NCBI RefSeq assembly: GCF_014217835.1
Contig: NZ_CP055263.1
Coordinates: forward strand, 1,116,001-1,180,000
Direction: 5' to 3'
DNA: 64,000 nucleotides
Origin: Metabacillus sp. KUDC1714
Lineage (GTDB): Bacteria; Bacillota; Bacilli; Bacillales; Bacillaceae
Positions 25,090 to 27,145 of the stretch are shown here, one piece after another; the stretch's first letter is position 1, and every line of letters starts with the position of its first letter. The notes under the pieces were generated by a model that was not told the origin of the DNA, did not search any database, and saw nothing but the letters and a program-made list of their open reading frames with translations. The translations under genes were made by a program, and so were the position numbers.

Positions 25090-25488
25090 TTAAAATAAAA
25101 AAGCATCGAGACTATACTGACCAGCACCTATTAAAGCTATGCCGATAGCAACCGCAAGCAAGGTTAGGTTATATTCGTATCCATTTGATGTTGCCCATAA
25201 TCCATTTGGAGCGTGCACTTTAACAATAGCCATTAACATAGTTCCTGCAATCATAATTCCAGCAAGTGGAGTTAAGAATCCTAAAGCGAATAAAATTCCT
25301 CCAATAAGTTCTGCTAATCCCGCGAACAGAGCCATAGTTACTCCTGGCTTCATGCCAATTGACTCAAACCATCCTCCTGTCCCTTTTAATCCATAACCAC
25401 CGAACCAACCAAACAATTTTTGAGCACCGTGACCAATAAATAAAACACCAATTACCAATCTAATTATTAATAATCCAATATCTATCAT
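25090..25488 (-). CDS. DoxX family membrane protein, MhqP type
   Basis: 132 residues with four predicted transmembrane helices and the DoxX signature GHGAQKLFGWFGGYGLKGTGG then FAGLAELIGGILFALGFLTPLAG. In B. subtilis the homologous mhqP (ydfP) is encoded with the MhqO dioxygenase and MhqN nitroreductase. It is the first full-length gene behind two MhqR-like operators, with TTGGAGGAAATTAATT before the ATG. Confidence 0.93.
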   Translation of the reverse strand: MIDIGLLIIRLVIGVLFIGHGAQKLFGWFGGYGLKGTGGWFESIGMKPGVTMALFAGLAELIGGILFALGFLTPLAGIMIAGTMLMAIVKVHAPNGLWATSNGYEYNLTLLAVAIGIALIGAGQYSLDAFLF

Positions 25489-25504
25489 AATTAATTTCCT
25501 CCAA

Positions 25505-25606
25505 TTAATTTATTTTATCTTGAATTCGAGATATATGATTATAAAAATTTATTTTTCCAATCAGCATTAGCAATATAAATGGATGATTCGTGCACTTTCT
25601 TTCCAT
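25505..25606 (-). CDS. 33-codon leader ORF upstream of doxX
   Basis: Starts at ATG 25606 behind a perfect ribosome site TAAGGAGGTGTCTC and ends 17 bp before the doxX start. The predicted peptide has a hydrophobic centre (PFILLMLIGKI). It lies downstream of the main promoter and its 3' third coincides with the second MhqR-like operator. It could be a leader peptide or a chance ORF; the strong ribosome site argues for translation. Confidence 0.45.
   Translation of the reverse strand: MERKCTNHPFILLMLIGKINFYNHISRIQDKIN
25516..25533. promoter_or_regulatory. MhqR-type operator 1
   Basis: TATCTTGAATTCGAGATA is a palindrome with one mismatch and matches the published B. subtilis MhqR consensus tATCTcgaAtTCgAGATa as I recall it. 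A TATAAT lies just upstream on the minus strand (25543-25538), so a second promoter with the operator on its start site is possible, but I see no good -35 box for it. Confidence 0.75.
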
Positions 25607-25637
25607 GAGACACCTCCTTATTGAATTCCTCGCAATT

Positions 25638-25699
25638 TATCTCGAATTAATTAATCTTGAATATGAGATAATTTTATAATCTATATTTTCTTTTGTCAA
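25638..25699 (-). promoter_or_regulatory. mhq operon promoter with MhqR-type operator 2
   Basis: On the minus strand a perfect TTGACA (25699-25694), 17-bp spacer and TAAAAT (25676-25671) form a SigA promoter. Directly after the -10 box, at 25669-25654, ATCTCATATTCAAGAT resembles the MhqR site, and a further half site ATCTCGAATT-like lies at 25638-25648. Repressor bound there would cover the transcription start. Confidence 0.7.
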
Positions 25700-25947
25700 T
25701 AGCTTTTCGAAAGTCTAAAAAAATTGTATTATCTAATCCAATCATGTAGACTATGTCCTCTCAATTTAAATGTGACATATATACAAATGCTTTGTTCAGC
25801 CTTCTTAGATGCAATTGATCTTGATTAAGAAAGTATTGGTATGGTCAAATTCCAGTATGAGCCTTGAATAATCTGACTGAATTTAAACATGCAAAATAAA
25901 GAAAGCAAAAAGGCTGTTTCCAATCTCATTGCAATCATGAATTGATA

Positions 25948-26118
25948 TTAAATTGCATTGTTTCGACTCTCCACAGTCTTATACTCATTTTCTAATTCAG
26001 GTAAGGTCAACTCATATAACTGACGATTATCAGATGATTTATACCTTTTCATCTTTAACAACTTTTGAATCATCTTTTCTTTCGGATTCATCATTGCTTT
26101 GATAGAAATATTGTTCAT
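25948..26118 (-). CDS. fbpA: Fur-regulated basic protein FbpA
   Basis: A 56-residue basic protein starting at ATG 26118 with AAAAGG nine bases upstream. The core EKMIQKLLKMKRYKSSDNRQ continues LYELTLPELENEYK, which is the FbpA family pattern (an L-x-x-L-Y-E-L-T-L-x-E-L-E ending). In B. subtilis FbpA, FbpB and FbpC help the small RNA FsrA carry out the iron-sparing response. It lies 26 bp downstream of the IDEAL-type gene and is last in an operon led by a double Fur box, which fits. Confidence 0.85.
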   Translation of the reverse strand: MNNISIKAMMNPKEKMIQKLLKMKRYKSSDNRQLYELTLPELENEYKTVESRNNAI

Positions 26119-26144
26119 ATTTTCACGCCTTTTGAAAAAGAAAT

Positions 26145-26558
26145 TTAAATGAATAAGTTTTCTTCGTATCGCTGCACGTAAATGTCTAATTTTGATTTAT
26201 TTTTACTCGCTTCTGTTAATTTCTTTGTATACTGTAGAAATGATTCTTCATCACCTTTTTCCAGAGTTTGATCGATCTTAAATTGTAAATAGTTTACTTT
26301 TAAATCTAAATCCACTAACGACAAAATATATCCACACTTGAAATAATGTTCCAAATCTTCAATCGCTATAAAAAAGTCTCTGCTTTTATTAATAAAAATT
26401 AGAAAGTACCAGCCGAAGTCATCGATGTATCTGCGCTCGTTCGTTACTTCCAAAATATCTCCCTTACTTATTGTCACGACATCTGCATGCCCGCCATCTG
26501 GGCAAAAACAGTCAATTTGATGTTCAAACATAATTTCAGCAATAAAATATCTGCTCAT
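26145..26558 (-). CDS. IDEAL-domain protein of unknown function
   Basis: 137 residues from the ATG at 26558, eight bases after AAGGAG; the stop of the upstream 46-codon ORF overlaps it as ATGA. The C-terminal part, LQFKIDQTLEKGDEESFLQY followed by TKKL, fits the IDEAL domain (I-D-x-A-L-x-x-x-D-x-x-x-F). The N-terminal 85 residues have Cys at about 18 and 20 in DCFCPDGGH and a beta-rich pattern like a small SH3-type barrel (SKGDILEVTNERRYIDDFGW). The role is unknown. Operon position between small Fur-controlled genes and fbpA suggests a part in iron limitation. Confidence 0.7.
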   Translation of the reverse strand: MSRYFIAEIMFEHQIDCFCPDGGHADVVTISKGDILEVTNERRYIDDFGWYFLIFINKSRDFFIAIEDLEHYFKCGYILSLVDLDLKVNYLQFKIDQTLEKGDEESFLQYTKKLTEASKNKSKLDIYVQRYEENLFI

Positions 26559-26695
26559 ACACTTATCTCCTTTTTGAAAAATAACCAACTGTGATATGTA
26601 ACATCCTGGGTTATTAGGCTATTAACTCTGTATTGCCACTCTTGAAAAAAGAATGATTTCATCACCAGATGATAATAATTCTCAACAAAAGACAT
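26555..26695 (-). CDS. 46-residue ORF coupled to the IDEAL-domain gene
   Basis: Runs from ATG 26695 (three bases after the previous stop) to a TGA that overlaps the next ATG. The start MSFVENYYHLVMKSFF resembles the N-terminal part found before the IDEAL motif in some small Bacillus proteins, but the motif itself is missing. There is only a weak ribosome site, so it may depend on translation of the upstream zinc-ribbon ORF. It may be a real small protein or a remnant. Confidence 0.45.
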   Translation of the reverse strand: MSFVENYYHLVMKSFFFQEWQYRVNSLITQDVTYHSWLFFKKEISV

Positions 26696-26697
26696 AT

Positions 26698-26826
26698 TTA
26701 ATGCTCGTATAACGAAAGAAAACAGGCTTCGATAAGCTCCAGTCCACAACATGTACAATGAGTATAGGCAAAATTCTGGTCATCAACAATTTCTTGTCTA
26801 AAAGCACACCATTCACAAATCAACAT
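26698..26826 (-). CDS. 42-residue zinc-ribbon-like protein
   Basis: Starts at ATG 26826 with AAAGG ten bases upstream. The peptide has CEWC near the N-terminus and CTCCG at residues 24-28, a two-knuckle pattern able to hold zinc or iron, followed by a helical tail. It is the first gene after a promoter carrying two Fur boxes. No named family is recognised; small CxxC proteins of this kind are common in Bacillus and mostly uncharacterised. Confidence 0.6.
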   Translation of the reverse strand: MLICEWCAFRQEIVDDQNFAYTHCTCCGLELIEACFLSLYEH

Positions 26827-26872
26827 AGTTTCTATACCTTTCTAAACCTATTTCTTTTATTCTAAAAACAAA

Positions 26873-26930
26873 TGATAATGATTATCATTATCTTTTTTGT
26901 GTTATATTTGATAACCATTCTCATTGTCAA
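26873..26930 (-). promoter_or_regulatory. Fur-controlled promoter of the small-protein operon
   Basis: On the minus strand TTGACA (26930-26925), an 18-bp spacer and TATAAC (26906-26901) form a promoter. A perfect 7-1-7 Fur box TGATAATGATTATCA lies at 26873-26887, just after the start site. A second box GATAACCATTCTCATTGTC at 26910-26928 fills the spacer and agrees with most positions of the classical GATAATGATAATCATTATC. Confidence 0.88.
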
Positions 26931-27145
26931 GAGAATCTCTTGTTCTTAATCTATCTAGAAGTTAAGAATAATGATTTATTTATTCTTGTTACCTGATACT
27001 CCTGAAAAACCACTCTATAAGGATAAAGCGACTTAGATATTGGTTATGAATGATAAAACATGTTAAACATATTAAAGTAAACCTGTGATCATAAATTCTT
27101 TTAGATTTCTTTTTTACAAATAAATAATAGCTTGAGGTGAATCAT

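Follow-up and report, generated by a model that had tools for sequence, protein, structure and literature searches.

The 64,000-nucleotide stretch of Metabacillus sp. KUDC1714 analysed here (contig NZ_CP055263.1, positions 1,116,001 to 1,180,000; hereafter, the window) carries on its reverse strand an operon that is a real transcription-unit candidate, with a predicted promoter followed by genes for a 42-amino-acid (aa) Cys-containing protein, an IDEAL-domain protein and FbpA. Control of this operon by Fur is well supported at the sequence level, and the recurrent partner of the IDEAL gene across the order is a flavodoxin gene. The module is very probably an iron-limitation unit, and the IDEAL protein, as the core component of a Fur-controlled iron-sparing operon, is apparently undescribed.

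Fur box 2 of the predicted SigA-type promoter P1 (Table 1) lies inside a perfect 19-bp palindrome (GATAATGATAATCATTATC, 26892-26874, reverse strand). Perfect 7-1-7 boxes occur at six places in the 5.76-Mb genome, compared with 0.23 expected from base composition; four of the other five are located just upstream of open reading frames (ORFs) that look iron-related when their translations are read by eye (iron-uptake, ferredoxin-reductase-like or siderophore-type), and the fifth has no clear ORF nearby. P1 is absent from a stricter promoter scan because that scan demands a final T in the -10 element; the same scan found none at Fur box 3, and a strong promoter at that site was discarded. A short inverted repeat (CAAGAGAATCTCTTG, window 26928-26942) overlaps the -35 element of P1. 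An earlier sequence-only reading of this DNA had proposed a SigA promoter whose spacer holds one Fur box and whose start carries a perfect 7-1-7 box: the coordinates are confirmed, and Fur control is borne out at the sequence level because the promoter layout recurs across genera. The 42-aa, IDEAL and FbpA ORFs of that reading are likewise present, the latter two above the Pfam cut-offs, and each of the three frames is open and preceded by a possible ribosome-binding site.

Table 1. Features of the candidate Fur-controlled operon (window coordinates)
Feature	Position	Strand	Description
SigA-type promoter P1	TTGACA 26930-26925; TATAAC 26906-26901	-	18-nucleotide spacer; 11 of 12 consensus matches
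Fur box 1, TGAGAATGGTTATCA	26923-26909	-	in the P1 spacer; two mismatches to 7-1-7
Fur box 2	26887-26873	-	perfect 7-1-7 at the predicted transcription start
42-aa Cys protein gene	26826-26698	-	rubredoxin-like CxxC...CxCC mini-protein; ORF and translation
46-aa ORF	26695-26555	-	open frame; overlaps the IDEAL start by ATGA; probably not a gene
Fur box 3, TGAGAATTATTATCA	26684-26670	-	just 3' of the 42-aa gene, inside the 46-aa ORF; one mismatch
IDEAL-domain protein gene	26558-26145	-	137 aa; Pfam IDEAL PF08858, 28.9 bits (cut-off 22)
fbpA	26118-25948	-	56 aa; Pfam Fur_reg_FbpA PF13076, 48.6 bits (cut-off 22)
Candidate terminator	25905-25932	-	weak stem-loop followed by a T-rich tail (ViennaRNA); unlisted by the terminator scan

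A sample of 397 genomes from 136 genera of the order was searched with a motif-free profile, up to 10 candidates per genome being scored. The IDEAL protein was detected in 65 of these genomes, the window's own included, and in 26 of the 136 genera. Among the best 60 of the 71 places, the window's own excluded, an upstream Fur box with at most one mismatch is present in 42, compared with 1 of 360 control stretches, and one with at most two mismatches in 48, compared with 4 of 360; the control stretches were drawn from the same loci and may contain Fur-regulated genes, and the loci are related by descent, so that the counts are not independent events. The second set, 46 named loci from at least 13 genera, was obtained by a contig scan with two peptide patterns, one of which includes some of the IDEAL protein's Cys motif, and at least six of its loci are in common with the order set (L089/L104, L091/L105, L097/L106, L102/L111, L095/L113 and L100/L118). 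Here, a Fur box with at most one mismatch is found between -350 and +60 of the first frame in 43 of the 46 loci, compared with 6 of 368 control stretches. The promoter layout is also shared: the best promoter, a prediction made without a shuffled control, overlaps a Fur box (up to 4 mismatches) in 43 of the 46 loci, a box starting one base past the -35 element is combined with an 18-base spacer in 37 (hand count), and two Fur boxes 24-42 bases apart are present in 32.

Within the genus, the IDEAL protein is present in 16 of the 20 other genomes (E 1.3e-46 to 7.3e-36), giving 17 loci from 21 genomes with the window's own included; outside the genus, the family search yielded a single match of 1.4e-10, all others being at 8.4e-4 or weaker. 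The next gene after the IDEAL gene is fbpA in 16 of the 17 genus loci, its frame being split in one of them; the 42-aa gene occurs in 10 (one split), and a 262-aa-type gene in 13 (three broken). The named loci were tallied with profiles built from the genus (E up to 0.01), whose training rows include some from these genomes. Of the 46 loci, 31 carry the 42-aa gene, 16 a 262-aa-type gene and 15 fbpA directly downstream of the IDEAL gene; the commonest arrangement, in 18 loci, is the 42-aa and IDEAL genes alone. In the order set, the 42-aa gene drops to 5 of 60 loci and fbpA to 3. The ancestral unit may thus have consisted of a Fur box, the IDEAL gene and a flavodoxin gene, with the 42-aa gene, the 262-aa gene and fbpA as additions in the window's branch, a reconstruction made without a tree. 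Conservation in relatives, on which the sequence-only reading had staked its small ORFs, holds for the 42-aa and IDEAL genes, which stand as conserved candidate iron-limitation genes, and fails for the 46-aa ORF.

A few loci depart from this general picture. Two genomes contain second IDEAL copies (L146 in G212 and L147 in G154) that lack both the Cys-x-Cys pair discussed below and a Fur box, the best candidates having 5 and 4 mismatches, respectively; the other copies in the same genomes (L116 and L117) possess Cys-x-Cys, a Fur box and a flavodoxin gene downstream. At the Neobacillus locus L087, IDEAL and fbpA are present, but a good Fur box is lacking, the search found no 42-aa gene and one Cys of the motif is changed; this locus is perhaps decaying.

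Flavodoxin is an iron-free stand-in for ferredoxin. Immediately after the IDEAL gene, 24 of the 60 order loci, spread over five families, have a flavodoxin gene, whereas the upstream stretches, 8.5 times longer in all, contain one in only 4 of the 60; this adjacency was compared with the upstream stretches of the same loci and not with a genome-wide rate. For 31 of the 60 loci, no flavodoxin match was obtained in the stretch covered, which for most loci extended 3.5 kb to the upstream side of the IDEAL match and about 1.1 kb to its downstream side. Of the 46 named loci, 14 have a flavodoxin gene within 4 kb, four of them with a downstream pair and three with a divergent gene, and 7 have one directly upstream of the 262-aa-type gene. 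A different configuration was observed in L068, L075, L077 and L082 (Sporosarcina globispora, Cytobacillus oceanisediminis and two Bacillus sp.), where two flavodoxin genes and an intervening gene, with a Fur box of their own, are located downstream of the 42-aa-IDEAL pair; the intervening 295-aa gene is whole in L068, L077 and L082, and the cluster resembles ykuNOP.

Between the 42-aa and IDEAL genes, the sequence-only reading had placed another possible small effector, the 46-aa ORF. Its open frame and its ATGA overlap with the IDEAL start stand, but its status as a gene does not: no Shine-Dalgarno sequence is seen upstream when the sequence is read, no Pfam or NCBIfam family is matched, and the frame encloses both Fur box 3 and a flavodoxin-like remnant. 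The ORF is probably the deletion scar of a lost flavodoxin-262-aa gene pair, a reading suggested by its resemblance to a flavodoxin gene start and by its position, which matches that of the flavodoxin gene in relatives. Specifically, positions 26659-26618 resemble the 5' end of a flavodoxin gene; the score of the alignment with the flavodoxin start of G066 is reached by 2 of 2000 dinucleotide shuffles, and those with five other flavodoxin starts by 10 to 31 of 2000. With an nhmmer profile of seven flavodoxin starts, the best match in the window falls here, at an E-value of 0.032, which is below the HMMER inclusion threshold. For the downstream part of the ORF, comparison with the 3' end of the Cas4-like gene and the stretch beyond gave no clear match (56 to 1934 of 2000 shuffles over six targets). 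In G066 (L033) and G052 (L046), a Fur box at the equivalent place directly precedes the flavodoxin gene, in the order Fur box, flavodoxin, 262-aa gene, IDEAL gene, fbpA; L062 and L101 have a similar box ahead of flavodoxin, and L063 has one ahead of the IDEAL gene. Across the 21 genus genomes (E up to 1e-6), this type of flavodoxin is intact in G052 and broken in G066 and was not found in the others, four further matches being ORFs of 614-617 aa. In the window's own genome, no short flavodoxin was found, the sole match being a 617-aa ORF (7e-5), and the 262-aa Cas4-like gene has no match.

The AlphaFold2 model of the IDEAL protein has good confidence values (predicted local distance difference test score, pLDDT, 90.6; predicted template modelling score 0.80) and consists of six strands (residues 3-65) followed by helices at 66-74, 81-101 and 104-136. 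An SH3-like barrel is a possible arrangement of the N-terminal strands: of 19 IDEAL members, 2 are matched by Pfam SH3_2 (best 0.0037), and the SH3 domains retrieved by Foldseek are weak matches. Foldseek gave no match under 0.001; its weak rows for the C-terminal helices include a ClpC-YpiB model chain (9a7e_B, E 0.87) and 3do9 (E 1.4). The list of VIA-align is dominated by unrelated helical hairpins and barely probes the N-terminal half. Against PDB sequences, the IDEAL profile yielded weak SH3 and other matches, none under 0.03. The Pfam IDEAL model, at E up to 0.1, matches 18 of the 19 aligned members, the window's included, some of them below the cut-off.

The N-terminal half of the window protein contains a potential metal-binding motif, H13-x3-C17-x-C19-x4-H24. 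The pattern H-x3-C-x-C-x4-H is present in all 17 genus loci and in 44 of the 46 named loci (43 by regular expression and L063 by eye, in a scan partly selected for the motif), and the Cys-x-Cys pair is kept in at least 43 of the 60 order loci. The four-ligand site was considered as a mark of the Fur-controlled clade and abandoned, being contradicted by the order sample, where a Fur box with no more than one mismatch is retained at 20 of the 35 loci lacking the motif; accordingly, the site cannot be essential to the IDEAL family.

The 42-aa protein was detected by single-sequence search in 5 of 80 genomes of the family, its own included, and its family shows five invariant Cys in nine aligned rows. 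Its profile finds rubredoxins as the best matches among PDB sequences (E 1.7e-4 over residues 21-43, and next 5.3e-4 over residues 8-35), over short stretches and with a different spacing. The 42-aa protein matches no rubredoxin family model: Pfam yields only PF14354 (0.09) and NCBIfam nothing, and the relative L008 matches NCBIfam RubredRD only at 0.6. The protein database yields 11 homologues, the named ones being annotated 'hypothetical', 'YhfH family' or 'rubrerythrin'.

The 240-262-aa protein encoded at the loci of relatives has one N-terminal Cys and a terminal C-x2-C-x5-C in 10 of 11 rows, which we take to be the Cys pattern of the AddB/Cas4 iron-sulfur nucleases. PDDEXK_1 matches one of four sequences (E 0.0021, under the cut-off), and the best four Foldseek rows for a low-confidence model (pLDDT 63.5) are Cas4-family ACE1 (E 1.6e-3 to 7e-3), with Dna2 and RecE among the other matches. 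The Cas4-like profile found nothing under 0.38 among PDB sequences, and no catalytic residues were recognised by eye. We also considered whether this protein could be YkuO and rejected the identification, as the gene between the flavodoxins in L068, L077 and L082 encodes a different-looking 295-aa protein (by eye). A flavodoxin gene followed by the 262-aa Cas4/AddB-like gene was observed behind Fur boxes in L046 (982-2244), L061 (2651-3919), L064 (2645-3908) and L101 (2712-3980).

FbpA is small and basic, with 11 Lys/Arg and 7 Asp/Glu among its 56 residues (hand count), and is one of three FbpA-domain proteins encoded in its genome. The other two genes (L037 and L039), one of which is located just after a flavin-reductase-like gene, have no Fur box with at most three mismatches within 600 bp upstream; the nearest box for the L037 gene, with three mismatches, is about 860 bp upstream, and L039 has none. 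The FbpA family name may cover proteins outside the Fur regulon.

Taken together, these observations suggest the following scheme. When iron is plentiful, Fur would occupy both promoter boxes and block SigA; when iron is low, the operon would yield the rubredoxin-like 42-aa protein, the IDEAL protein and FbpA. The IDEAL protein would be the core of a widespread iron-sparing module, often beside flavodoxin, and would act as a ReoY-like protein-protein adaptor, perhaps for ClpCP, that works with flavodoxin; client recognition would fall to its N-terminal half with the Cys-x-Cys site, an iron-sulfur protein or apo-ferredoxin being conceivable clients, while the 42-aa protein would assist in metal or client binding and FbpA would be an optional extra. 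The iron-sparing role is suggested by the flavodoxin link and by FbpA; an adaptor role is favoured because ReoY, in which the IDEAL domain also occurs, is a ClpCP factor and because small genes under shared regulation would suit adaptors. The combination of a Fur-repressed iron-limitation operon with an IDEAL adaptor is offered as a tentative proposal, and the adaptor mechanism, which draws on the analogy with ReoY, is somewhat doubtful taken by itself. Its most specific version, a proteolytic arm, appears rather improbable: a Fur-controlled ReoY-like IDEAL adaptor would deliver iron-sulfur clients to ClpCP when iron is short, the client perhaps being the ferredoxin that flavodoxin replaces, with the Cys-x-Cys metal site gating the choice in many lineages and a rubredoxin-like protein as partner.

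The operon, the Fur boxes, conservation and the flavodoxin link are read from sequence, and from these we infer the in vivo iron response, metal binding, the link to ClpC and the client. Several observations weigh against this proposal. No box with at most two mismatches is present at 12 of the 60 order loci, and the window's genome keeps the IDEAL gene yet has no short flavodoxin. Only 25 of the 60 order loci have the H-C-C-H motif, 20 of the other 35 retain a Fur box as noted above, and L149, L151, L152, L154 and L155 lack even Cys-x-Cys yet possess a perfect Fur box. The IDEAL domain has short helices, and many unrelated helical rows match the model at least as well as YpiB does; the relative in L008 reaches only 13.4 bits compared with the IDEAL cut-off of 22. 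The window protein does not match a ReoY model over its whole length, scoring 16.4 bits of 258 with PRK03057 (residues 80-120), and the L008 protein scores 14.3 bits of 182 with the ReoY-type PRK03636 (residues 43-117).

Alternative explanations for the same genes start from different parts of this evidence. The 42-aa protein and the Cys-x-Cys/His site of the IDEAL protein could form a metal-handling pair that binds iron or zinc as a small chelator, chaperone or sensor, with the IDEAL domain serving as a mere oligomerisation or docking hairpin. The five invariant Cys of the 42-aa family, its rubredoxin matches and the near-universal motif in the genus and named loci are in line with such a pair, but the motif is missing in 35 of the 60 order loci, 20 of them with a good Fur box, and the 42-aa gene occurs in just 5 of 60 there; we consider this interpretation unlikely. 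If the flavodoxin neighbourhood is given more weight, the IDEAL protein could be an accessory factor of flavodoxin electron transfer (reductase docking or assembly) and the 42-aa protein a rubredoxin-like carrier. The flavodoxin gene directly downstream in 24 of the 60 order loci, and the flavodoxin and Cas4-like genes directly upstream in 7 of the 46 named loci, would fit this possibility; the 31 order loci with no flavodoxin match in the stretch covered, and the window's genome with its lack of a short flavodoxin, would not, and we judge its chances to be poor.

The sequence-only reading had suggested that the small proteins are RNA-chaperone partners in a small-RNA iron-sparing system of the FsrA-FbpA type. 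FbpA is encoded in the same operon here and in 16 of the 17 genus loci, one with a split frame, and FbpA-C are described as proposed RNA chaperones for FsrA in the parts of the literature consulted (PMC12871923, PMC7430163). However, outside the genus fbpA is usually not beside the IDEAL gene (15 of the 46 named and 3 of the 60 order loci have it there), an Rfam search of the window's genome (RF02273; 150 of 1526 candidates scored) did not find FsrA, although the Bacillus subtilis control was detected, and for FbpB itself the sections seen of PMC7430163 report no experimental evidence of RNA binding. The partnership is thus unsupported and seems very unlikely. An Rfam scan of the window between 24500 and 28500 gave no match at E up to 0.1. 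Finally, the window operon might be a decaying remnant that lost the flavodoxin and Cas4-like genes, the rest being non-functional. The probable scar in the window, the single intact and single broken flavodoxin among the 21 genus genomes and the broken Cas4-like copy in G068 are compatible with decay; conversely, a perfect Fur box is present, the 42-aa, IDEAL and fbpA frames are open and preceded by possible ribosome-binding sites, and the 42-aa-IDEAL pair by itself is the commonest arrangement in the named loci (18 of 46), which makes this scenario extremely improbable.

Should the proposed iron-sparing role of the IDEAL module hold, the IDEAL protein may be an overlooked part of iron saving in Bacillus-related bacteria. 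Found in 65 of 397 order genomes, often next to flavodoxin, the Fur-box IDEAL gene points to an unstudied component that may have escaped B. subtilis research; the presence of the IDEAL gene in B. subtilis was not looked for by name. The IDEAL operon, with its predicted Fur control, provides a testable entry to the functions of small co-regulated proteins.

Two further observations concern neighbouring genes. In several genomes, a 51-aa Cys-rich protein (CEVNNC..W..GNKC type) is encoded near the IDEAL gene (L064 4711-4866, L109 4607-4762 and L154 3174-3329). In the window itself, a DoxX gene preceded by palindromes of the ATCTTGAATTCGAGAT kind (25090-25535 and 25600-25700) adjoins glyoxalase/dioxygenase-like and hydrolase-like genes; we presume that this region, with its ATCTTGAATTCGAGAT-type palindromes, resembles the MhqR regulon.

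In the open-access titles and abstracts listed, subscription papers being mostly outside this scope, no Fur-controlled IDEAL protein or operon of this kind is described; the IDEAL domain is mentioned in a table of PMC12541555 that, in the part seen, is not about iron, and the main text of the papers behind a crosslinking resource makes no mention of ClpC or YpiB. Among the closest known systems is the B. subtilis iron-sparing response, which, according to the portions consulted of PMC12871923 and PMC7430163, runs through Fur, FsrA and the Fbp proteins. The window operon resembles FsrA-FbpABC in its predicted Fur control and in an FbpA above the Pfam cut-off, and differs in that those portions name neither the 42-aa nor the IDEAL protein as a part and that fbpA is only optional in the IDEAL module. 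With ykuNOP, presumably represented by the clusters in L068, L077 and L082, the module shares a Fur box and flavodoxins; unlike that system, it includes the IDEAL and 262-aa Cas4-like proteins, which do not resemble the 295-aa product of the middle gene (by eye), and a short flavodoxin is missing from the window's genome. The 262-aa-type protein of relatives may resemble the Cas4/AddB PD-(D/E)XK nucleases, judging by its Cys pattern and its low-confidence model matches, but has no catalytic residues recognisable by eye and is absent from the window's genome. The 42-aa family may share with rubredoxins CxxCG[FY] and CPxCG-like knuckles, identified through sequence matches, and is distinguished by a shorter spacing, a fifth invariant Cys and a length of 40-50 aa. 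YpiB, or ReoY, carries an IDEAL domain. In the material seen of PMC7286690, it interacts with ClpC and ClpP in two-hybrid assays and is needed for the degradation of ClpC substrates. The window protein is comparable to ReoY/YpiB in its C-terminal IDEAL domain and, weakly, in its model matches, and differs from it in its length of 137 aa, in an N-terminal half that family scans find to be different, and in the Fur boxes upstream of its gene.

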